Of a stretch of DNA of 64,000 nt, positions 14,115 through 56,400 are shown piece by piece. Location: positions 125,001 to 189,000 of the forward strand of contig CAUYUJ010011570.1 of the NCBI GenBank assembly GCA_963575745.1. Reading direction: 5' to 3'. The translations under genes were made by a program, and so were the position numbers. Origin of the DNA: Prorocentrum cordatum (Eukaryota; Sar; Dinophyceae; Prorocentrales; Prorocentraceae). Each line of letters starts with the position of its first letter. The stretch's first letter is position 1. The notes beneath the pieces are model-generated. The model had not been told where the DNA came from, did no database searches, and saw nothing but the letters and a program-made list of their open reading frames with translations.

Positions 14115-14878
14115 GTGCTCACTACTCATAACGCATTAACCACGACCCACTACTCACTACTCGCTACTCACTACTCACTTCTCACTACTCACTACTCACT
14201 ACTCACGACTCACTACTCACTACCCGCTACTCACTACCCAGTACTCACTACTCTCTACTCCCTACTCCCTACTCGCAACTCACAAATCACTACTCACTAA
14301 TCATTATTCAATACTCACTTCTCACTAAACACAACTCACTACCCAATACGCGCGAATCACAAATCACTACTCATCACCCACTAACCACTAACCACTATCC
14401 ACTACTGACTGCCCACAACCCTCTAATCACTTGCCACTACTCACAAGTTGCTACTCACTACTCACTGGTCAATACTCACTACGCGCAACTGACGACTCAC
14501 TACTTACTACTCGCTACTCCCTACGCACTATCCACTGCCCAATACTCAATACCCACTTCTCACTTGTCACTACTCACTACTGCCTACTCCCTGCTCCCTA
14601 CCCACTGCTCACTGCTCACTACTCGCTACTCCCCACTCGCTATTCACTACTCACTACTGTCTCCTCACTACTCGCAATTCCCTATTTGCAACTCACTATT
14701 CACGATGCGCTACTCCCGACTCGCTACTCATTACTCACTACCCACTCCCAACTACCAACTTTTCACTACTCACTACTCACTTCTCACTACGCACTGCGCA
14801 CTACTCACTCCTCACGAATCGCTCCTATCTACTCCCTACTCACGATTAACTACTCACTACTCACTACTATCTACTCAG
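14115..14878 (+). repeat. Degenerate heptamer array (CACTACT)n
   Basis: About 110 tandem 7-bp units of CACTACT with single-base variants (CGCTACT, CACTTCT, CACTGCT, CAATACT). Because three heptamers equal seven codons, all plus frames give a seven-residue Tyr/Ser/Leu/Thr repeat; these frames are artefacts. The period equals the telomere repeat length and the array abuts the telomere-like patch. Confidence 0.9.
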
Positions 14879-32987: not shown

Positions 32988-34470
32988 AACATATCTCTCT
33001 ATCGGCAACGCGATCCCTGTTATGCCCCAGGACCCCGTGGGTCCTCCTCTATTTGTCGCCGCTACCGTCAACGCTACCGCCGCTGGCGTTCCTGTCCTCG
33101 TGGTCGTGGTCGTCGTCGTCAGCGTTGTCCTCGTCGTCATCTTCCATCCCAAGCGCGGCTCCCGGAGTGCCTCACCAGCAGCATCAGCACGTTCGCCGTC
33201 ACCCAGATGACGAGGTAGCTCTGACTGCCGCGGGCTGGAAGGGAGGAGGCAGGGCGAACGAAGCGAGGCGGCAGAAGAGAAGGACTGTTTTGCCAACCCA
33301 GAGCCATTCGGGAAACAACGGGAAACACACCCGAGGCGAAACACAACCTCTCCGCACTCGGAGCCGAAGCCACGAATACGACATGGCGCCGCAACGCCCC
33401 ACTAGTGCATCACCTTCTTGACGGAAGAGGAGGAGGAGGCGGAGGAGGAGGAGGAGGAACAGAAGGGGAGGAGGAGAGCAGGATGGGAGGGCGAGGAAGA
33501 TGGGGGAGTTGGAAGAGGGGCGAGGTCGAAGGAGGGAGACGGGGAGAAACGCTCCCTGCCAGGCGGGGGAGGGGTGTCAGCTCCGAGCAGAGCAGCGCCG
33601 GGCTCCCCCACCGCGCCGCGCTGAAAGCGCTCGGGGATTTCCGGGCGTGCAGTCATCGTGCTACCACACGGCACGCTGGATAGTTGATGAGCGGAGGGGC
33701 TTCGCTGGCAACTGCGAGCCTCGGACACGAGCAGGCTCCCCGACCGAGATCTAGACCCAGGGAACGGCCCGAAAAACAATGCCTTGATTGGGACCCAAAG
33801 GGTTCTCTTATCTCAGGGCCTCGGAAATAGTGGCTCCACGCGCACACACACACACACACAAGCGCTGAGCACGAACCAGCGCTGCCCTGGAGGGGGCAAA
33901 ATAGTTCTTGCGGCCATTACGTGTACGCCGGCCGCCCTCTGGGCGGCGGGGAACTAGGCGAATGCGACCAGGGCAGGGAGGAAGCGGAGAAGCGAAGCGA
34001 ACGCTGGAGTCATGCGCGCTCCACTAGTAAGCCCGCCCGTGCTCATTAGGGCATGATTGGAAACGAAGCGAATGCTGGAGTCGTGCGAACTCCGCTAGGA
34101 TGCCCGCCCGTGCTGGTAGGACATGGCGTGGAGGCCGTGGCCTCGAACATGTGAAGGCAGTGAGAAGGTAGGAGGAGGGAGGAGAAGGTAGTGCCGGAGG
34201 GAGGAAGAAAGAGAGGCGAGGAAGGAGCAAGGAGAGGTTGGATGTGATCTGGAATGGGAAGACATGCTAAGACTATAATCCGCCGGCCCCCTTGTGGGGC
34301 CACCAGGCTGTAGGCACGTGATTCGCAGTTTCCTGTACCAGTTGTAGTTTGTAGTTTCCAATGTTACAGTTCTGCTTCTTGCTGGTTACTGCAACTAGTT
34401 GATTGACCGCGCGAGGGGGGGGAGGCCCAAACAGGATTTTTTGGCACCCCCTGGGCGCGTTGTCTGAATT
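32988..34470. other. No gene recognised; short microsatellites
   Basis: GTCGTCGTC at 33101-33140, (GGA)n at 33423-33465, (CA)n at 33841-33860. Near-duplicate phrases GAAGCGAA(C/T)GCTGGAGTC at 33993 and 34063 mark a small ~70-bp duplication. No domain in any frame. Confidence 0.55.
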
Positions 34471-35055: not shown

Positions 35056-36345
35056 TTGTAAACCATACACGCCTTACCAATCGCCCTGTGTGGTAACCCC
35101 TCTTGTGATCAGTTGGTTTTGCCGATTGCGAATCGGCCTCGCATGAAGTTCCGATACTGCTGCACGACAGCGCCAAAGCCTCATGACTTAGCTTTTCCAT
35201 GGCCCGTTCTCCGAGAGAGGGGGCCGGCGGCAGGGTGCGAAACCCTTACGGATCAACACCACACGCACACATAGCAAAGGCATACATCCTCCCGGACATG
35301 CTGATGTCGGCTTGAACCAGAGTCCGCACATAGCAAACAGTTGTGGAGCAACTTTGACGCAAATTTATGGTGCTCTGCGCTTCTAATGAGGTGCTCGCGT
35401 CTTTGAATGATGGGTCCACCCCAGATGGGGCACGGCACTGAGTACTGCGTGGACTGACTCACCGTATTCGGTATAAGTGCATCGCGTTTGAAAAAACGAA
35501 AACAGAGCCCCCACGCCGCCTCGTGAGCTTCGGGTTCACGTCGCACTGGGCCATGCAGGGCACGACGATCGAGAAGACTATGGGCGCGAGACCTGCCCAA
35601 ACTCACCCCTCTGATATCATCATTCGATGTCGTCTGCGTTGCCTTCCCCCCTTTACCTCTTCCTTCACCCTTATAGCTCAACCTCATCCGTTCACCCCTC
35701 TTGGCACTAGCAACGCCATCGCACACGCATGGGCCGTTCCGTGTGCAATCAGGAGGGGGCTGCATGTTCGGGAAACGTGGCGGATGAGCACGAGAAATGC
35801 GATGATGATTCAAGAAGGAGGAGGAGAAGGAGGAGGAGGCAGCAGCAGCAGGAGCGAGAGAAGCAAAAGGACCAGAGCAAAGTCGAGAGGTGAACACCAG
35901 AAAAGCGCTAAGAAAAAAAGTACGGTGTATAAATGTGGCCCGCGCCAAAGGGAGAGCGCCATTCTGAACAACACGCTTTCGAGATGCCTCCAGCGAGGCC
36001 GTGCGACACGAAACAACTTTAACCACCCATCGAACAGTCAATGCACTCTGTGCCCAGGGTTCTTCTGCGTAAGATCGCCTCGGGAACCCCTCAACGAGCC
36101 GAAAGGGAGCCGAACGCTGCCCAATACAGCCCCAGGAGCACCCCGAGGTAAACCATGAGACTGCCCGAAGGCCGCCCATAACGCCCCCCAAAAGGGCTGC
36201 AAGACACGCCCGCACGTCCGCAAAGATAGTGACACCGAGCCATTTCGGGAAAGCTGTAGGTGGAACCGTTTCGCCCAAGACGGCCACGGGAGCCCCGACG
36301 GGCCCTCATGAGGCCACAACGAACCCCCTTCAATGCCTGCAAGGC
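35056..36345. other. No supported gene
   Basis: A 344-codon minus-strand open frame (35253-36287) crosses a GGA tract (35815-35850) and the diverged GCCCAAGAGG-type sequence at 36090-36320; it shows no domain and inconsistent codon choice. 35215-35253 carries a short block shared with 47750-47790. Confidence 0.45.
35215..35253 (+). repeat. Short dispersed block, copy 1
   Basis: GAGAGAGGGGGCCGGCGGCA, then GGGTGCGAAACCCTTACGGA and TCAACA. Similar to 47750-47790 (CGGCGGCAGGGGGCGAAGCC, CTTACGGATAAACA). GGGTGCGAAACCC / GGGGGCGAAGCCC could form a tiny hairpin. Confidence 0.55.
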
Positions 36346-36648
36346 GGAAGAGGAGGAGGAGGAGGAGAAGGAGGAGGAGGAGACCCGATCCCATCTGGCA
36401 AGTCATCCGAGGCGCCCACATCGCTAGATGCCCTACCGCCGCGCCAGAGCCCGCGCCCTGGCATCCCGTCGGCAAATAAGGCGGAACCGGCCTGCAGCAG
36501 GCCGAATGGCTCGCGATGTGATTTGGGCCCCCTCGGACCTGAGCTTGTTAAACGTGTTTAACAGAACGTCGCGTGCTATGGCAATGGAGACGATCTCATC
36601 GCACTAGAGAGGCATAGAAAAAAGAAGGAGCCCAGCAAACACCTCCGC

Positions 36649-36666
36649 CCCCCACCATGGTGGGGG
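36649..36666 (-). other. 18-bp perfect palindrome in the LINE 3' region
   Basis: CCCCCACCATGGTGGGGG directly follows the ORF2 stop; an adjacent GGCCTAGGCC-type palindrome covers the stop itself. Some LINEs use a 3' hairpin for recognition by their reverse transcriptase; that role here is inferred only. Confidence 0.5.
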
Positions 36667-36667
36667 C

Positions 36668-37657
36668 CTAGGCCCTAGGCAGATTGGCAAGCATCACTCC
36701 GAGAAGAGCAGGACAGACAAGGTAATGCACGATCTGGTCACCAGCAATACATTGACATCCAAACCTGCATCCTAGCGTGGCCTGGCGGTATCTCCGAGAG
36801 GTATTCCAAGCGTTGCATATACTGCGCAGCAGACTGAGTTGAACAAAGGGAGCAATGTGCTGGCCGACCACTTTTAGCCGAGAGAAACACAGTTGGGCTT
36901 CAGGGGCCCCGACTTGGCCAGCTTCAGGAAACCTCGAGGCCCAATGCTGGAGACGCCTCAGGATAAGCTCTGGAAAAGGGACCGGGGGTTGATGGGCGAG
37001 CACAAGCTTGGTCATTTTCTTCTGAAGCCCGTGCTCGAAGACGGCGGGGGCGGACGGGATTCGGGATAACTCACGATAGTTCTGGTTCATCATGAAAACG
37101 TAAGACTTGGTACAAACGGGATGGAGATGAGCGTCCAGATGGCATTCGGGGTCATCGAACGCGTCCTCGATTTTCTCGATGCAGGCGAAAAAGACGGAAG
37201 AGGCGAGGGTAGCACGATCTGCAGCGGCACGAGCTTCGCGTGTGAGAGACCTGGCCCGAAATAGTTTCCCCCCAAGAGACTTCGTTCCCACCAGCATATG
37301 ATCAGACAAGGCATGCCGAGGAGCACATGTAAGCGACTGTAGCCCCAGATGCACCTGCCAGCTGCAATCGGCCGCGGGCGGAAAGAACTGGGCAATGTAC
37401 GTGGGCACGGCGACTGCGATCTGGCTGTGCGCCACGAGAGAAATCGACAGGCCTAACTTCAAAGTCTTAATGAAGCGGCAGCGGTCGCGGAACTTGACCA
37501 GCGGGGCGGCCCAAGACTCCCCCTGGGCCCTGATCCCGCACATCGCACCAAGATACTTGGCACACTTAGACATCCCGAAGCTCCGAACTCTGACCCCCTG
37601 CCGTTGGAACTTCCTCTCCTCCTCCTCCCTGTTAAACTCGCGGTAAAATAATACCAC
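36668..37657 (-). pseudogene. LINE ORF2 C-terminal region with Cys/His finger
   Basis: Continues the reverse transcriptase frame after a one-base shift at an A6 run (minus strand) near 37655-37665. About 330 codons. It includes a conserved helical linker (VRSFGMSKCAKYLGAMCG at its start) and, near the end at 36710-36775, C-x-x-G-C-x-C-x(4)-D-x-x-x-H-Y-x-x-C-P, a finger like those at the C termini of many LINE ORF2 proteins and thought to bind nucleic acid. It ends at the TAG at 36668. Confidence 0.8.
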
Positions 37658-38874
37658 CGTTTTTTGAAGTTCGGGGCGAGGCCCGCGGCGAGCCCTGCAA
37701 GCATCCTAACTTTCATGACAATGGGCACGGCCGCGTAGATATCAAAGGCGGCGGAGGCAACATCGTCGGCGAAGGCACCGCGCAAATGGACAGGTCGGGG
37801 CAGCCGAAGACAGAGCAAGCGTAACATCGGGTCGAACCCCAGGGCGAACGCGCTTCCCGAGAGTGGACATCCTTGCTTTATCCCGCGGAGGATGCGAAAA
37901 GAGCAGTGAGACACCCCGCCCAGGAGAATGGTGGTGGCAACCTTGGCGTAGAGCGTCTTTATTGCATTCAGTACAAACTCGGGAAAGTTCATTTTCTCGA
38001 ACACGAAAAATATCCAATCATGGCATAAACTTGGGAAGGCGGCCTTAACGTCCAGCAGGATAGCGCCTGCAGTCTGCCGCCATAAAAGACCTGCTCCTAC
38101 GACCATGTGGGTCTCGAACTCAATCAGCAGATTGTCAAGCATGTTACGGTGTTTAACGAAGCCCCTTTGGATCCCAATAGTGGTGTCCACGCAAACGTCT
38201 TTCAGGCGGCAGTTGATCGCGACAGCGACAATTTTGTTGATCGGGTTGGAGAGGGAGATGGGACGGGTCATTTCAAGGGTCCTCCAGAGCTCGAAACCGT
38301 CGCGGTCCAGGAAACCGTTGGGGAGGAAGATCGAGTTGCTGAGGTTGAAATCGTCTGAAAGCTGGCCGAAATCCAAGATATGCTGGTGCATGGCGTAGGC
38401 GGCCCACCTAACAAATAAGTTCCCTTTGGACCAGGCAGAGTAACATAGCCCGTCAGGGCCAGGGGCGGAATCGCGAAGCCGATCCAAAACTCCGTAAAAC
38501 TGTTCTTCAGAGAGCCCCCAAATCTGAGCCTCCCTCACTTTTTGAATACGTTCCTCCAGCTGGTCCCTCGCGGCAATTTGAAATCAAGCAGAGGCGTGAA
38601 CTTGACTCCAATGAGCGGCTAGAGCATGAGCCCCAGCCTCAGCAGTCGGGAAAGCGCCCCCCTCGGCATCCGCGATGCCCGTGAGGAATATTCTCCGATT
38701 CTTCGGCGACCAGGCCGGTGCCAATCTCTGAAGACGCGCAGCTCGGTGCTCATAAAACTGGGGGGATTCCGTGGTATGTCCAATGATTTCCTCACTCTTT
38801 TTGGCACCGAGCGGCAGCAATCTTGGCCATATACTCTTGAAAGACTGACTGGTTGTGCCGCGTGCCACAGTCAA
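37459..38874 (-). pseudogene. LINE ORF2 reverse transcriptase region
   Basis: Motifs in order: DSAPGPDGLCYSAW (about 38440-38470), RPISLSNPINKIVAVAINCR, GFVKHRNMLDNLL, AILLDVKAAFPSL with the motif A Asp (about 38020-38060), GIKQGCPLSGSAF motif B (about 37840-37885), and AFADDVASAAFD with intact Asp-Asp (about 37745-37780). An in-frame TGA at 38584-38586 separates the linker (from 38874) from the reverse transcriptase core. Upstream, the frame is one base off from the endonuclease frame. Both lesions would stop translation before the catalytic core. Confidence 0.88.
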
Positions 38875-40144
38875 GGTCGAGAAAGTTGAGCAGCACGGTG
38901 ATGGCTTTGACGGCCTTCTTCAGCGTGCTTATCTTGTGGCTCCGCATGGCGCGATTCACCGCGAACAGCCACTGCAAATGCTGCTCGGCGGAACTGGGCG
39001 GAAACTCAGAAAGGCGATGCTGGACAAGACGTCCTGCGTCGTGCATTAGGCACGTGAGCTCTTCAACCATCAGCGGCGGATTATCTTCGCACACCCCGTG
39101 CTCGTCGATCAGCTTTTCAAGCAGGATCGGATACAGAGGGTGACGAGAGACCCACGAGGCGACGGCCCGAGCGCGGTTGTCTCCGCCTCCGTTCAGACGC
39201 AGGTACACCGGGGCGTGGTCACTCGGGAGGTCGGCTTTACAAATATACCAGGAGGTCCCAGAGGTCGTTTTCAAATCCAAGATATCCCCAGTAAACATAT
39301 TGGTATAAATACGGTCGATCCTGGATACACTAACCACATTCCCATTCCGAGTGGCGTGGTGGGTCGGGTTCTCTTGGTAGCATTCCATAACGTTAAGCAA
39401 GAGCGACCAGAACTTATGGGCGAGGGGGTCGGGGCCGTTGATCTGCACAGAGCCGTCTACTCGCCGGGCACCCTCGCCCAGCTCGCAAAAGTTGAAGTCT
39501 CCAACAAAGAAGAAGAGGCCCTGGACAGTGCGCAAAAAATCGGCGCATAAGCGAAGAATCCTTATTTTCTCTCTGTGGCGGCAGCTCGGGTGTAGATGGA
39601 GGTTCAAGATGGCAAGCGAGAAAGAGTCGGACTGGATGGTGACGGCAAGGAGACGCCCAGGAATAATCACATTGCGTTGATGTTGAGGAAGCAGAGCGAG
39701 AAGAGAGCGAGCGAGCATGATCGCGTTCCCGCCAACGCGACTGTCGGGACAGAACGTACAGACAGATTCATAGCCAGGGAACTCGGTACGCAACGACTCG
39801 CGATCCCCTTCATGGCCGTGCGTTTCTTGCAAGCATATGATATTGTGTGCTCTAATTAGGTTAGCGAGTCGATCGAAGGTCTTGACCTGAGTGTCGTGGC
39901 CCCCAGAGACCGCGCCGAACAGGGTATGACAGTTCCAAGTAGCAATCCGAATATCTCGACCGTTGGCCAGGGATGGCGGAAAAGAGAGGCGAGAACTGGC
40001 TGGGTTCTCAGGCGAAGGTGGCCGGGCTCCGGATTCAGCATTCGACAGAGAAGGCGAACAAAGATCAGAAGACTCGGGCGACAGAGGCAGCGAGGCAACG
40101 GGAGAAGGCAGAAAATTAGCACACGATACTAGGCTGGCATCACT
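38792..40144 (-). pseudogene. LINE ORF2 AP endonuclease region
   Basis: The frame is open from directly after the ORF1 stop (TGA at 40145-40147) and is the same frame as ORF1. After a Ser/Pro-rich linker the endonuclease starts with IRIATWNCHTLFG (about 39925-39965). It has ICLQETHGH with the catalytic Glu (about 39815-39840), LNLHLHPSCRHREK, FVGDFNF (about 39490-39512), RIDRIYTN (about 39290-39315) and SDHAPVYLRL (about 39195-39225), the full set of APE-type motifs. It would nick target DNA to prime reverse transcription. The frame ends at 38792, beyond the likely shift near 38810 into the reverse transcriptase frame. Confidence 0.88.
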
Positions 40145-41239
40145 TCAGTACTGCTGGACGGAGGCCTGGGCCTGCTCGACCATCCAGTTGGCGGTCGTCT
40201 CGGTGATGCTCCACTCGGAGAGCTGGTCGCTAATCGGCTTCAACTCGTACATGCCTCCAGGAGCATCGGTCAGCTTGGAGATCTCCCAGCGGTCGTTCTC
40301 GGTGGTGATACTGAACACGCCTTTGAACGGGTTGGTGCCGATCTTGATTGAAGGGCCCCACTTCCCTGTGTTCTCGAAGTGCTTGCGGACGAGCGGCCAG
40401 AGGGCGCTCAGGACGCGGTTCTTCTGGCGGGCCTGCAGCGGCATATCCCTGCGGCATCTCAGTGGATGAAGGGAGGTGTTGCGGTAGTCCTGCCATGTCA
40501 CGGGGTTCGCGAGGAACCAGTCATGGAAGTCGCGGGCCTTCTGCTCAGAGTTGAAGGTGACGGCGAACGCTTGAGATACTTTGTGGAAATGACCTGTCAT
40601 CCCTTCGCTGATGGCGGCAGGAAGTCGGCTTTTCATCTGGTTGAAGACTGTGTGCCTATACGGCTCAGTGACTGGGCGAGGAAAACCGCTGCTCCACCGT
40701 CTGGTAGGATCGATCTGGTTGTGCTCGTCGTTGGCGAGATCGATCATTGGAATCTCGGAAGCGCGGGAGCCAGCACTGGTGCCCCTTCCTAAGCGACGAG
40801 ACTTGGATGGCGGCCGAGTTGAAGCGGAGCCTGCATCGGACGGAGCTCGCTGTAGTTCGGCAAGGGACGCTTCGAGCCTGGCCATCTTCTCATTCATCTG
40901 ACGTTGAATCTCGAGCCCTGCGTTTTTGGCGGTGGGGTTGCCGTCTTCGGTGTCAAAGAAGGCAGCGTTGGTGGCGGCTTCTTGATGGGCATGCTCGAGT
41001 CGAGACACTCGTAGGTCCATGTCGAGAACGAGGGCTTGGTGGGCTTTCTTAGCTTCTTCGAACTTGTCCTCCATGGCGAGCTCGAGATCGGAAATCTTCT
41101 CCTCCAGTTCTTCAGCAACGGCGAAACGTTTTTTTGTTTTTTTGACATCTCTGATGTCGTCCCTCGTGGCGCTCATGCCGCCGTTCATCCCTTCTAGAAC
41201 TTGGAGCAACTGAGCATTGGATACCTCGGCAGCGGCCAT
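40145..41239 (-). CDS. LINE ORF1 protein (coiled coil plus nucleic-acid-binding-like domain)
   Basis: ATG at 41239, chosen because an upstream in-frame TGA at 41297-41299 rules out extension and this is the first ATG after it; 364 codons. Residues about 30-100 form a heptad-rich coiled coil (VAEELEEKISDLELAMEDKF ... MDLRVSRLEHAHQEA), with another helical stretch near 120-140 (MNEKMARLEASLAELQ). A Ser/Arg/Gly-rich linker follows. The C-terminal half has AFAVTFNSEQKARDFHDWFL, which fits the second half of an RRM-like fold as in other LINE ORF1 proteins. It presumably binds element RNA as a multimer. The stop is TGA, with ORF2 continuing in the same frame. Confidence 0.8.
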   Translation of the reverse strand: MAAAEVSNAQLLQVLEGMNGGMSATRDDIRDVKKTKKRFAVAEELEEKISDLELAMEDKFEEAKKAHQALVLDMDLRVSRLEHAHQEAATNAAFFDTEDGNPTAKNAGLEIQRQMNEKMARLEASLAELQRAPSDAGSASTRPPSKSRRLGRGTSAGSRASEIPMIDLANDEHNQIDPTRRWSSGFPRPVTEPYRHTVFNQMKSRLPAAISEGMTGHFHKVSQAFAVTFNSEQKARDFHDWFLANPVTWQDYRNTSLHPLRCRRDMPLQARQKNRVLSALWPLVRKHFENTGKWGPSIKIGTNPFKGVFSITTENDRWEISKLTDAPGGMYELKPISDQLSEWSITETTANWMVEQAQASVQQY

Positions 41240-41396
41240 TGCACTGCCAGGAAACGAGACAAGAGTCTGGAGAAACAAACTGGGTGGCAAAATGCCTCAG
41301 TGTGCGAAAAAAGGGTCAACCCCCGACCCTTGTGTCGCGGGCCGAGTCGGGAGCAGCCCTGCTCTGACCTGGCCAGCTGCCTTGAGGATATGCCAA

Positions 41397-41423
41397 CTTG
41401 AGCCAAGACCTGAACCAGAATGG
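41397..41423 (-). other. Two truncated spliced-leader relics in tandem
   Basis: Directly 3' of the full leader on the minus strand: CCATTCTGGTTCAGG (41423-41409), matching the leader's last 15 bases at 12 positions, then TCTTGGCTCAAG (41408-41397), matching its last 12 at 11 positions. No base separates leader and relics. Such stacked relics are the recorded mark of mRNAs trans-spliced again after a processed copy reintegrated. Confidence 0.8.
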
Positions 41424-41445
41424 CTTGAGCCAAAATGGCTACGGA
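41424..41445 (-). other. Complete dinoflagellate spliced-leader sequence (22 nt)
   Basis: Minus strand reads T, CCGTAGCC, ATTTT, GGCTCAAG, the exact dinoflagellate leader DCCGUAGCC...GGCUCAAG with D = U. It sits 185 bases upstream of the ORF1 ATG. There is no GT donor and no Sm site downstream, so this is a genomic copy of a leader from a reverse-transcribed trans-spliced mRNA, not a leader-RNA gene. Confidence 0.95.
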
Positions 41446-44070
41446 AGAGGAGGAGGAGGAGAAGAAGGAAGGAAGGACGAGGGTAGTGAGGCTTCGAACA
41501 AGGAGGATACCTATGTTCAGGAACCACGCTACTTCAAAAAGGACACTGGACATGAACGGTTCTCATCCTCTCTCACGCGCTGGCACAATGGCGAGGTTTG
41601 CCACATGCAGTGGTTCATCGCGTTCGATGATCACGCGCTGCCATGAAATTGCAACTTGACATCCTCATCCTAAACCCCTCCATCTGGCACAGCCCGTAAT
41701 TGATAATTCACCTCTTTCCTATACTGTTCCTCCCACATGTTCGCCTTCGGCATGACCGACAATGCTGTACCGCTTATGTGCAAAACTCTGTGTTCCCAAT
41801 CGACTGTCTATGCTGATCTTTCTTTACTCGTCTTCAAGCCTCCGAGGCATATGCTGATCGCTCATGCTCCCAACTTTGCGGCCCGTAGTCCGACCGACAT
41901 TCTCCCACCAATACGACAGCGCTTCATGAACCTTATCTAAACGCGCAACCGCAATATGAATGGCACACCGAGAAACAACAGCACGATGGCAACCGTCAGG
42001 ACGACGAGGACGACGACAGACGAGGACCAGAGAAAATGAGACTACGAGAAGTCATCAAATAATGTACATCCACCTCCGCATCGTCATCCTCCTTCCTCAT
42101 CCCTTCCCTCCTCCTCCTCGTTTTGATCCTCCTACTCCTCCTCCTCCGTCTGGCCCCCCCCGACCCTTGGGACCGTCACAGCAATCCGTTACAACTGAAG
42201 AAACAAACTCACATGACATAGTATCCTCTCGTTCGTCCTCCTCCAACATCCTCCTCCTCCTCCTCCTCCACCTCATGCCTCAGAATCGGCTCCTCCTTGG
42301 GCTCGTTTTGACCACAATGTCGAGGGGAAACCGTCCTCAGGCACATCAACGTGGAAACACCACAGACAGGTCTTGATCCTCAAGGTTCGATCCTGGAACC
42401 TCGATCCCCCACCCCCGTCCCTCCTCCCAATTCATTCGAGGCCCAGCTGCAGAGAAGACTCAGCGATGCCGAGATGCGCAGGTGGACGAGAGCGCCCTGA
42501 GAGCCAAACCTCCAGTGCAGTCAGGCAGCCTCCCAAACCCGAATGGAGGATAGGGGCTCAATCCTCTAGCGACTCGGAAAGATTGCGACGGATCCGCGCG
42601 GCCGTGCTTCAGTGCCGCTGCCGTGGCCGCACAGGAGCAGCCACCATGAGGAGAGGATGGTCAGAGATACCCATCGAATGATTGCCGCCGCTCCATCCCG
42701 CGGGCCGCCGCCACCGAAGGTTGGGGGTGGCCGAACGATACTGATGCCGCCACTCCCTGGATCTCTCACGGCCTACGCTCTAACCGGGATTATGAGGCGA
42801 ACCCGGCCGTGGCGGGGGATCCCCGAAAAGCCTCAAAACGGCGGAAACGAAGGAAGGGCATCGGTATCGGTACTGACAGGAAGACCCTGATATCGGGCGT
42901 CGCGAAAACAATGGCGCATCGCGAAAAATCACGACTGGAGCCCTAAACACCATCTTGCTGCTGCATCTGTCGAGCCGGCTCGATCTGGGCTGGGTCCTGG
43001 CCTGAAAGGGGGCGAGAACACCCGGCGCGCAGAAATTGCAACGCAAATCTCAGGAGCCATCCACCCCCCCGATCTCCGCGCGCACGGGGATTCCGAGGCG
43101 AAGCGGTTAGTGGCGCCGAGGGCCGAAGAGGCGGAAGCGAGGGTAACCAGCCTCGATCTGATCCGTGCCCGTGCCCCTAAGACTGACAAACGCCCAAATG
43201 CGACGCCAATCCGAGCGACATGCGCCGGGAAACCGAGGGAATGCTTAACCCCGAGCCTTGGATAATAAAATTACCCCACCCCTTCACTACTGAGTGTTGA
43301 TTATCCCCGGCGAATGCAGGCGATGCGAATCATCGGGGCAGGGATCCGTTCCAAGATGGCAAAGAGTGTCGAGCGTCGGTAGCGGTCTCGGCACCCTGGG
43401 CGAGGAGCTGTTCTAGCAACACCCGATCGGTAGCGGTCTGACTTCTCCCCCGAGAGGGGGGCATACCCCGCCCGCCCCACGCTCCGCGCGCGCCCGCGAG
43501 GGCTCGCCCAGCTCGTTCCCCTGCTCCCTTCCCCGAGAAGGCTCTCCCACCCCGACCCCCGCTGGGCGCGCGGTGGCGCGCGGGCGCCCGCTTGGCATGC
43601 TCGCCCACCTCGTTCCCCTGCTTCAGGGGCAGAAGCGGGACGCCCAGCTGGGCGGCGGGGAGCGGCCCGCCCGGCGGCTGGGACGACAACAGACACGGGT
43701 GGCGAGCCAGCGTCGCCCTTGTGAAGCCATCGGGGGCCGCAGTCGGCCCCCAGGAAGGTCCCAAGGGGTCGGGGCGAAGCAAATTGCAGCCTCTGGGGCG
43801 GGGTCTGGACGTCCGCGGACCAAAGTCTCGGATAAGCCGTCTCTTCCTCCTCAGCCCCTCCCTTCCTCACATATTCTCCCCTACTTTTCCCTCCTTCCTC
43901 TGCTCATAGAATCCTGCCTCAAGTGGTGGGTGCTCTGGCCTTTCCCACTGTCCTCCTCTCGGATCCGTGATGCCTACTTGAAATTTCCCACATGCCTCGT
44001 GGGCTCCTGGTTTTCTCTCACTCATGTTTCACCTCCTCGTTCTCCTTCTCCTTGTAACCTGCACTCGCGC
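41446..44070. other. No gene recognised
   Basis: 41443-41485 is a GGA/GAAGGA tract; 42090-42160 and 42235-42275 are TCCTCC tracts; 43440-43700 is GC-rich. Open frames are short or Arg/Pro-rich without domains. Confidence 0.55.
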
Positions 44071-49535: not shown

Positions 49536-50955
49536 CTCACAAATTTCTTTTTCAGGCTGCGCAGAACATGACTGCCCCTCTTTCTTCCTATCCAGGGGGA
49601 GGGGAAGAAGGAGAGCCAGTGGGCAACGGTGAGGGAGATGGAAGGGGCAGAACGGGAGATGGGACGGTTCGGCAAAGATGGAGCACGGAGAAGGGAGGCA
49701 GGAGGAGGAGGAGTAAATGATCTCTTCTCCCTGATGTGGCATGAACTGAACCGGGCCCTGGAGGAAAAGAGTCCTCCCCCGGGACAAGCTGATCATCCTG
49801 AGTCGTATCATGACGCGGAGCCTGAACAAACAACAAATCCAAGACCACACTCCTACATGACGACTCATGCTCACACTGCCCCTCCGCACAGTCAACAAAC
49901 GTGCCCCGAAGAGGATGGCTCCAGGAGGCTGGCGGCGGTCGCCGATGGTCGCCAGGCGCTGGCCTGCGTCGCGGAAGTGGTAGCTCCCCAGGACCTTCGG
50001 CGCTGAACAAAGCTTTGCAATAACAGGGGGAGGCGTGAGGATGGAAGGGCACCACATATACACATATATATATATATATATATATATAGAAAAATGCCAA
50101 AAACGACTCTAGCCTGGGTTACAAGTGCGTGGTCTGTAAACCTCCTGGGAGCTCCCAAAGGCCAGAGAGCCGCCAGGACGCCGCGCGACACGCGCAATAT
50201 GCATGGTTTACCCTGTCAGCCTATAGGAGGTTCAGCGCACAGCGCCTTGTAAACTAGGTTAGGGGCGTTTTTTACGCCCTTGATGTACAGCTAGATCTAG
50301 ATCTATATCTATATATATATATATATATACACACTTACGCCGATCCTGGCGAGGTCCATCTTGGGCCAAGGCTCGGTGTATGCCATCCTGGCCTGTACAC
50401 CGATCTTGAGCGCAGGATGGGTCTGGCCAAAATCGGTGTAGGTGTATAGTTGGCGTCCTCCTGTATGAGATATCCTGTCAATTTGGGGAGAGCTCCTTAG
50501 AGGCTTCCAGCCGTTGTTATCAGCTGTGTGCTCCCAACCTCCCAAGCAGCGAAAAGAAACCAAGGATGACAAGTAATACGACGAACGACGGAACACAGAC
50601 ACGAGGCCCCGAAGACTGGGCAGCCCAGTGAGATGCCAGCACAGAGACGGTCGAAAATCGCAAGCACAAGAGATGGACGAAGAAAAATAGTACGATCGGA
50701 CAATGTTCATAGGGGGCTACGATGACCTGCCGTCTGAAACTGTGTCGGGTACAAGCCTCCCCTAATATGGCATTCCCTAACTTGACCTGACTCAGGCCTG
50801 GTCGACACTGTGCGTCAAAGCTAACCTGACCCACGAAAGCTAACGTGACCAACGGCTCGGCGACACCAGTGCGTCACGCGCGCGCTGTAACAAATGATGC
50901 ACGAGAACGGGGCGGCACAGCATGCAATACAAGAGTATCAACTGTATCACAGTTG
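49536..50955. other. No gene recognised; two TA microsatellites
   Basis: (TA)n at 50062-50090 and 50305-50330. GGATGG..CTGGCC words near 50350-50430. Nothing else seen. Confidence 0.5.
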
Positions 50956-54134: not shown

Positions 54135-54576
54135 TTTACAGTAGTCGTAGTAGAGCTCACAATCGCGCTCGAAGTAGTAGAAGTAGTAGTAGTGGTCGTC
54201 GTCGTCGTGGTCGTCGTCGTAGTAGTAGTAGTAGTAGTAGTAGAAGGAGAGATCAGATTAGTAGTAAACGTAGCACTGGAAGAAGAAGTAATGATAGTAG
54301 CAGTCGTGGCAGTCGTAGTCGTAGTAATGGTGGTAGTTGTTGTAGCAGTAGTAGTCGCAGCAGTAGTTGTAGCAGCTGTCGTAGTAGTATCAGTAGAAGT
54401 CGTAGCAAGGTTGATGGGAATAGTCGTCGCAATTGCAATAGAAATATTAGTACTAGTAGCCGTAACTGTAGAAATAGTCGTATTAGTGTAGTAGTAGTAG
54501 TAGTAGTAGCAGTAGAAGTATTAGTAGTAGTAGTAGTAGTAGTAGCAGTAGTAGCTGTAGTAGTAGTAGTAGCAGC

Positions 54577-54619
<43 letters not shown>

Positions 54620-54625
54620 ACAGTC

Positions 54626-54658
<33 letters not shown>

Positions 54659-54724
54659 ACAGTCGTAGTAGTAGTAGTAGTAGTAATAGTAGTAGTAGTA
54701 GTAGCAGTAGTAGTAGTAGTAGTA

Positions 54725-54760
<36 letters not shown>

Positions 54761-55264
54761 ATAGTAGTAGCAGTAGCTGTAAGAGCCGTAGTCGTGTTAG
54801 TGGCAGTAGTAGTGGTAGTAGAGACAGTACTCGTAGTACTGGTAGTAGTACTAGTAGTAATGATGGTAGTCTATGTCGAAGTAATGGTAATCATGATTGT
54901 AATAGTAGTAGTAGTAGTCGTAGTCGTAGTCGTAGTAGTAGCAGCAGTGGCAGTAGCAGTAGCAGTAGTAGTAGTAGCAGTAGTAGTAGTAGTAGTAGCA
55001 GTAGTCTTGGTAGAACTAATGAGTAGTAGTAATAATACAAGTAGTGGTCGTAATAGTAGTAAGGGTAAGAGTGATAGTAGTAAGAGTAGTCGCGGTCGTA
55101 GTAGTCGTCGTAGTAGTCGTATTACTATTAGTGTTCGTATTAGTAGTCGTGGTAGTAATACTGAAAGCAGTAGTCGTAGCAGTAGCTGTAGTAGTAGTCA
55201 GTAGCCGAAGAAATCGTACGAGTAGCGGGAGTAGACGTAGTAGTAGGAATAGTGGTGGTACTAC

Positions 55265-55300
<36 letters not shown>

Positions 55301-55488
55301 CAGTCGTAGCCGTAGTAATAATAAAAATAGCTGTCGTAGTAATAGCAGCAGTAGTAATACTGATCAGAATGGTCGACAGAGTTACAATAGTAATACTAGT
55401 AGTAGTCGTAGAAGTGATAGTGGTAGTGGTAGGAGTAGTAGTAGTAGTAAGAGTAGTAGTAGGTATACTCGCGGTGGTAATAGTAATC

Positions 55489-55519
<31 letters not shown>

Positions 55520-55775
55520 AATGAGTAAAACTAATAATAACAATAGATGTCGCAATAATCTCAGTCATAGTCGCAGTGGTAGGTCGTAGCCGTATTAGTA
55601 GTAGAAATCACAACGGTCGTAGAAGTACTGATAGTAGTAATACTAGAACAAGTAGTCGTAAACGTCGTAGTAATAGTAGTGGTGGTACTAGTAGTAATAA
55701 TAATGATCAGAATGGTAGACATGGTTGCAGTAGTAATACTAGTAGTAGTCGCAGACTTAATCGTAGTAGTGGTAA

Positions 55776-55811
<36 letters not shown>

Positions 55812-56400
55812 CAAGTGTAGTCGTAGTAGTAGTAGTAGTAGCAGTAGTAGTAGTAGTAGTCGGAGTAGTAGTAGTAGTAGTAGTAGTAACACTCGCAATG
55901 GTGATAGAAAGAGTAAGAGTAGTAGTAATATTAATAGAAGTAGATGTCGTAGTAATCGGAGTCATAGTCGCAGTAGTAGGTCGTAGCCGTATTCGTAGCA
56001 GTGATCATAGCAGTCGTAGTAATACTAGTAGTAGTGCTAAAACAAAGAGTCGTAGTCGTAGCAGTAGTAGTATAGTAGTAGTCGTAGTAGCAGTAGTAGC
56101 AGTAGTAGTAGTAGTAGTAGTAGTAGTAGTCGTAGAAATAATAAAAAAATAATAGTAGGAATCGTAGTAGTAGTAATAGTAGTAGCGGTAGTAGTAGTAC
56201 TAGTAGTCGCGGTCGTAGTAGTAGTAGTAGTAGTAGTAGTAGTCATAGCAGTCTTAACAATAGAAACAACAATCGAAGTAGTGGACGAAGTAGAAGTAGT
56301 AGTCGTGGTCGTAGTTGTAGCACTAATAGCAGTAGAAATTGCAATGCTACTAGTGGGCGAAGTAGAAGAAGTAATCGGAAAAGTAATCCGACGACGACAA
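54135..56400 (+). repeat. 2.2-kb AGT trinucleotide array
   Basis: (AGT)n with scattered CGT, AGA and AAT variants across about 2.2 kb. Long Val/Ser/Arg or Thr/Ile frames through it are repeat translations. The longest uninterrupted AGT runs are near 54600-54780, with more interrupted sequence toward both ends. Confidence 0.97.

Follow-up and report, generated by a model that had tools for sequence, protein, structure and literature searches.

Organization of the element

The window, that is the whole 64-kb stretch of Prorocentrum cordatum DNA analyzed here (C11570:125001-189000), contains an APE-type LINE with ORF1, endonuclease and reverse transcriptase, which runs on the minus strand from 41445 to 36384. 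The following features were assigned to the element and its target flanks.

41443 to 41477, minus strand: unbroken pyrimidine tract of 35 nt immediately 5' of the leader (5' target side); the same type of flank in 27 of 30 copies
41424 to 41445, minus strand: dinoflagellate spliced leader, complete at 22 nt, which forms the 5' terminus; boundary taken from target-site duplications of sister copies
41409 to 41423, minus strand: first leader relic, 15 nt, 12/15 identical to the 3' part of the leader (CCATTCTGGTTCAGG)
41397 to 41408, minus strand: second leader relic, 12 nt, 11/12 identical (TCTTGGCTCAAG)
41240 to 41396, minus strand: 5' UTR; its initial 16 nt (TTGGCATATCCTCAAG) may be a relic of great age, with a putative alternative AG acceptor at their end
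40148 to 41239, minus strand: ORF1, 364 aa, open; stop codon TGA at 40147-40145
38795 to 40144, minus strand: ORF2, part 1, encoding an apurinic-type endonuclease domain (Exo_endo_phos) and sharing its frame with ORF1; first Met is residue 143
37462 to 38583, minus strand: ORF2, part 2, encoding the reverse transcriptase (RVT_1, FADD); the frame differs from that of part 1, and a stop codon in this frame lies shortly before it
36671 to 37705, minus strand: ORF2, part 3, C-terminal part past the second frameshift
36433 to 36670, minus strand: ORF2 probably ends here, in a different frame (stop codon 36435-36433), as judged from the reading frames in a part that no homologue covers
36384 to 36432, minus strand: 3' UTR, body ending in GGGATCGGG, an end common to sister copies
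36346 to 36383, minus strand: pyrimidine tract of 38 nt past the 3' end (3' target side), ending CTCTTCC(G) as the 5' tract does

For the product of ORF1, neither a Pfam match (E up to 0.01) nor, among 4247 candidates, a homologue was found. Its predicted model, of low confidence (mean pLDDT 49) and too weak for a fold search, consists of long helices followed by strand and helix elements. The endonuclease part matched Exo_endo_phos (4.5e-8) and carries the motifs WNC, QETH, GDFN and SDH, which we take to be the catalytic ones. The reverse transcriptase part matched RVT_1 (8e-14), and its profile matched L1 ORF2p (3.6e-35) and R2 (9.9e-34) about equally well in the PDB; one relative of this domain comes from Prorocentrum cordatum itself. 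Comparison with homologues revealed that ORF2 of the window copy is broken: the frame changes between 38882 and 38856 and near 37660, and immediately upstream of 38583 an in-frame stop interrupts the homologous stretch. ORF1 and ORF2 share one frame with a single TGA between them (40144-40147, minus strand) and no Met before the endonuclease; this TGA may be a site of read-through, or it may have arisen by a nonsense change that split a fused ORF.

The assignment to APE-type LINEs is based on the LINE-related reverse transcriptase, the apurinic-type endonuclease domain, and insertion at variable sites with duplications and a fixed 3' end. The bodies end in GGGATCGGG(T), followed directly by the target and not by poly(A); a poly(A) tail is not universal among LINEs. 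Scans for related reverse transcriptases revealed no relative in viral contigs and 20 distant loci in genome contigs, none with the exact leader motif; the search of plasmids with the reverse transcriptase gave no match. Neither Rfam nor tRNA scans detected anything in the window.

Several other features of the window were noted. Behind the 3' target tract stands CCTTGCAG-G (36342-36383, minus strand), resembling a 3' splice site. Another tract with the same CTCTTCCG ending, followed by TCAAG, lies at 33422-33458 on the minus strand; it was considered as the 3' boundary and ruled out, the 3' end having been fixed by sister copies. A 2-kb degenerate AGT-type trinucleotide array occupies 54173-56243, and a (CTCACTA)n array 14118-14877.

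Spliced leader and leader relics

The minus strand from 41445 to 41424 reads TCCGTAGCCATTTTGGCTCAAG, identical to the dinoflagellate leader at 22 of 22 positions. When up to three mismatches were allowed, the leader 21-mer matched the window at this site alone, and no match appeared in any of 100 shuffles. With the leader itself set aside, 15-mers scoring 12/15 occurred twice on the two strands of the window, as the first relic and at 50356, and 12-mers scoring 11/12 once, as the second relic. Because so few 15-mers and 12-mers score as high, the relic stack is not due to chance. The initial annotation had placed a full leader and two stacked relics at 41397 to 41445: the leader is perfect and the stack is present, while the relics are imperfect copies (12/15 and 11/12). 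The second relic, of 12 nt, is the remnant expected from splicing onto the leader variant CCGTAGTCTTGGCTCAAG, and this variant was found as the outer leader of another copy of the family (L065).

ORF1 starts 157 nt beyond the second relic. Directly behind the stack, 16 nt (41396-41381) could be what is left of an even earlier leader. Local alignment of the 5' UTR to the relic was not significant (equally good in 19% of shuffles), and the alternative AG acceptor at the end of this segment is suggested by the copies L057, L062 and L081. RNA folding of the 5' UTR was unremarkable (z -1.26). A leader followed by two relics would imply for the window copy at least three events of trans-splicing and reverse transcription, as had been proposed.

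Copies of the family and insertion boundaries

The assembly (4.128 Gb, 21,875 contigs) was searched with 801 bases around the 5' end, in which the leader starts at query position 256. Among 49 matches (best 40 of 887 candidates scored), 40 best-scored copies were obtained, the window included; because the query held the leader and 40 of 887 candidates were scored, this sample favours full-length, leader-headed copies. In 37 of the 39 other copies the match starts at query position 218 or later, and in two at 195 and 205. The window is pyrimidine-rich at both of these positions, and the copy starting at 195 (L076) has (TCC)n there. None of the 39 shares sequence with the window beyond the pyrimidine-rich stretch before the leader.

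The 5' end was read in 30 copies, all of which begin exactly at the leader with T + CCGTAG (29 exact) or T + CTGTAG (1); the first 20 nt of CCGTAGCCATTTTGGCTCAAG are unchanged in 19 of the 30. Of the 10 copies outside this set of 30, one (C20087) shows no match over the leader. The exact 5'-UTR motif TTGCCATATCCTCAAGGCAGCTGG occurs 20 times in the assembly, and in 20 of 20 cases in leader-joined copies that were read. L073 and L074 are identical over the stretch used for the tree and therefore probably represent one duplicated locus. The expectation that many copies start at the leader was thus borne out; in the copies read, neither shared upstream sequence nor a leader confined to one copy was seen.

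A flank was counted as pyrimidine-rich when at least 0.9 of the 30 nt before the leader were pyrimidines. By this measure 27 of 30 copies have a pyrimidine flank, mostly (TCC)n, and none has a purine-rich one; the background is 179 of 18278 positions (1.0%) in the window and 405 of 16164 positions (2.5%) in L023-L052. Weaker pyrimidine flanks precede the leader in L067, L070 and L077, and the duplication of L070 is not TCC. The targets thus consist mostly of one simple repeat. Kibi, Koshi, Waldo and Dong are LINEs that likewise insert into microsatellites; unlike in these, the 5' end here is a host leader, and the target tract may double as splicing context.

The 3' region of the window was found in 17 of 18 stretches taken at the expected 3' ends (the exception being L100), and a 3' end could be paired with a parsed leader in 16 of 19, the window included. 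The body ends in GGGATCGGG, and the next base is mostly T. An exact stretch of at least 17 nt, shared with the 5' flank and starting 0-1 nt past the body end, was present in 9 of these 16 copies. Five of the nine duplications, of 17-18 nt, are not pure microsatellite (L061/L089, L064/L092, L066/L094, L058/L087 and L070/L098). In the other seven, including the window copy, slippage or microsatellite repeats in the flanks kept a duplication of at least 17 nt from being set within 1 nt of the body end. Where duplications could be set, the 5' boundary of the insertion is the leader, whose first nucleotide lies inside the insertion or is shared by overlap; in L066 there is one extra base between boundary and leader. 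The proposal that the leader serves as the 5' end of the element agrees with these boundaries and with all 30 copies read.

Number and divergence of relics

The inner relics are 3' parts of the leader cut at its own AG, so that a full leader is followed by relics truncated after leader nt 7. No relic was found in 9 of the 30 copies read, one in 16 and two in 5. It had been suggested that the stack counts rounds of retrotransposition, that relic number marks subfamilies and that older relics are clearly more diverged; none of these suggestions was supported. Relic counts required 11 changes on the tree against a mean of 12.3 for shuffled labels, and values as low were obtained in 48 of 200 shuffles. 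Outer leaders differed from the leader at 19/630 positions, first relics at 9/300 and second relics at 5/60, but four of the last five come from the window copy, and the Fisher test of first against second relics gave p = 0.065 with this copy and p = 1.0 without it. In this count the innermost unit of L057, L062 and L081 was left out, its parsing ending one base short, and the outer leader of L062, which reads unchanged, was entered as zero differences.

In the same three copies a leader or relic is joined straight to GGCAG(C/T)TGG, with TTGCCATATCCTCAAG skipped and the 16 nt behind the stack missing, as expected if they were spliced at a later AG. Because use of a later AG can shorten the stack, the latter is a lower bound on the number of rounds and not a count.

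Proposed cycle of trans-splicing and retrotransposition

Very probably, the RNA of this LINE is trans-spliced, the element thereby takes the host leader as its 5' terminus, and the pyrimidine target, once duplicated, provides acceptor context for the next round. The DNA itself displays the leader at the boundary, the relics cut at the leader's own AG, the duplications, the pyrimidine target and the renewal of the leader on many branches. From these we infer trans-splicing of the LINE RNA, its transcription, and help from the duplicated pyrimidine tract. Element RNA trans-spliced at the TAG inside the old leader would give a new cDNA starting with a complete leader; alternatively, a later AG would accept the leader and the old pieces would be removed. 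Target-primed insertion into (TCC)n would then set a pyrimidine tract before the leader TAG and so favour splicing in the following round. Because nothing upstream of the leader travels with the element, transcription would have to rely on read-through from the flanks or on internal sequence. In the window copy the 35-nt tract at 41443 to 41477 could serve as the polypyrimidine tract for the leader TAG. Such a tract may not be needed at all, since trans-splice acceptors of Amphidinium have no simple consensus around the AG (PMC2488372).

A possible, though rather doubtful, alternative is that the pyrimidine tracts have no splicing role and are merely a preferred target, the pyrimidine-rich RNA end priming on (GGA)n. 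This would fit the 3' ends, most of which, among those listed, have a body ending in GGG followed by TCTCC, and also the leader sites that lie in (GGA)n in the opposite orientation (1611 of 16479 in a 15-purine test and 8 of 60 in a sample). Against it, the LINE family occurs in the pyrimidine orientation only (27 of 30 against 0), which is not decisive as strand choice in priming may explain it.

It is improbable that leader-headed copies are by-products, dead on arrival, of occasional trans-splicing in a LINE that possesses a 5' end and promoter of its own. Leader-headed copies of ordinary genes are indeed common in dinoflagellates (PMC6050394, PMC12014239). Moreover, ORF2 of the window copy is broken by two frameshifts and an in-frame stop that are supported by homologues, and the sample was drawn with a leader-containing query. 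However, all 30 copies read have a leader, and the relics found behind leaders in many branches show that leader-headed copies repeatedly parented further copies.

Stacking of leaders at the RNA level, by repeated trans-splicing of one mRNA with no passage through DNA between rounds, is very improbable. The leader's own AG could accept another leader, but a leader that is capped lacks the branch point or tract upstream that another round of splicing would need. In addition, the first relic of the window has three substitutions absent from the outer leader, an argument confined to few copies, as most relics are leader-identical.

Finally, SLACS, CZAR and NeSL-1 insert into spliced-leader genes, and here too LINE and leader are physically joined, the leader directly abutting the element; that it is the flank of such a target is hardly credible, since it is unsplit and followed by relics or 5' UTR in 30 of 30 copies read, the duplications lie outside it and put it inside the insertion, most flanks are (TCC)n, and the GTA that begins the SL-RNA intron right after the leader was seen at 0 of 60 sampled leader sites.

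Relation to known retrogenes and elements

Dinoflagellate retrogenes with DinoSL relics were reportedly described by Slamovits and Keeling in 2008. For genes, both leader relics and leader recycling are established (PMC3229502, PMC7245778, PMC12014239, PMC6050394). Two of these describe the same arrangement as in the LINE, a full leader followed by 15-nt relics cut past leader nt 7, and the same cycle of trans-splicing, reverse transcription and reinsertion (PMC3229502, PMC12014239). Unlike in these retrogenes, the carrier here is a retrotransposon family of autonomous type that makes duplications, ends at a fixed 3' position and targets (TCC)n, and relic number is no simple counter. In reviews it is left open which element is responsible for dinoflagellate retrogenes, one favouring Ty1/copia LTR elements (PMC6050394), and LINEs have been proposed for RNA-virus endogenization (PMC10235124).

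The closest precedent found comes from flatworms, in which LTR and LINE elements contain partial leader sequences (PMC12582326); the passage concerned is a single remark on 597 discarded loci and contains no analysis of boundary, stack, target or cycle. For the LTR element Cer1 of C. elegans, one study describes spliced mRNA with and without SL1 and a full-length 8-kb RNA that is not trans-spliced at that site (PMC3315495). No description of a leader-headed dinoflagellate LINE family was found in the passages available from the literature searched.

Spliced leaders elsewhere in the genome

With up to one mismatch, CCATTTTGGCTCAAG was found 41,740 times in the assembly, compared with 169 for the reversed control, and the exact leader 17-mer CCGTAGCCATTTTGGCT 16,479 times, compared with 0 for its control; 15 purines precede the 17-mer in 1,611 of the 16,479. 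Flanks at 60 leader sites, taken in order among 100 listed, were pyrimidine-rich in 23 cases, purine-rich in 8 and mixed in 29. Of 26 distinct sites from the CCATTTTGGCTCAAG search, 17 have a near-complete leader, with pyrimidine-rich flanks in 10 and purine-rich ones in 3. This distribution points, without amounting to proof, to insertion of leader-tagged host mRNAs by the same machinery. With regard to the many mixed flanks, some in other simple repeats, either another route exists or flanks decay.

Among 17 leader loci for which about 1.5 kb downstream was available, exact duplications amounted to one TCC run in one locus, a result that lends no support to action in trans. When ORF1, the endonuclease and three relatives were compared with these 17 loci by tblastn, only L051 was matched, itself a copy of this LINE. 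Pfam searches of 10 ORFs behind other leaders (L026, L032 and L040 included) gave none above the cut-off and one match below it.

Other repeats were observed to open directly with a complete leader (L102/L157, L115/L122, L032/L133, L118/L131, L040/L152 and L026/L129/L134); a good part of their flanks are (TCC)n or (GGA)n and others are mixed. Near position 1500 of L042 and L043, leader pieces stand head to head in an inverted arrangement of several units. L147-L149 (G000:C39:19.9-28.2 kb) are three near-identical leader sites with a common upstream flank, 3-5 kb apart, and form a tandem array that includes the leader. Among viral contigs the exact 21-nt leader was found in one (L001; IMG/VR 3300045993_001077, 1936-2913). 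This contig is virus-like, with 18% GC outside a patch, and holds two exact leader 21-mers, one of them 45 nt upstream of an ORF in the patch of 49% GC; the patch looks like a retrocopy of a dinoflagellate mRNA inside a viral genome. A leader 18-mer in a phage-like gene (L022) was taken as chance.

A wider model can be put forward tentatively, and we regard it as about as open to doubt as to belief, if slightly more so. LINE retrotransposition and trans-splicing would form one cycle in which the leader is a renewable 5' end and the targeting of pyrimidine microsatellites gives nearly every insertion a ready acceptor; the machinery, acting in trans, would also put leader-tagged host mRNAs into (TCC)n and would be a main source of the massive gene retroposition in dinoflagellates. 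A LINE family with a leader of its own and with a pyrimidine target that many of the sampled leader sites have in common is a concrete candidate for the maker of dinoflagellate retrogenes, and its choice of pyrimidine targets would also explain how promoterless retrocopies become spliceable. Relic counts may underestimate rounds of retroposition, as stacks can be shortened. If the model is true, this would be a retrotransposon whose 5' end is supplied by host RNA processing.
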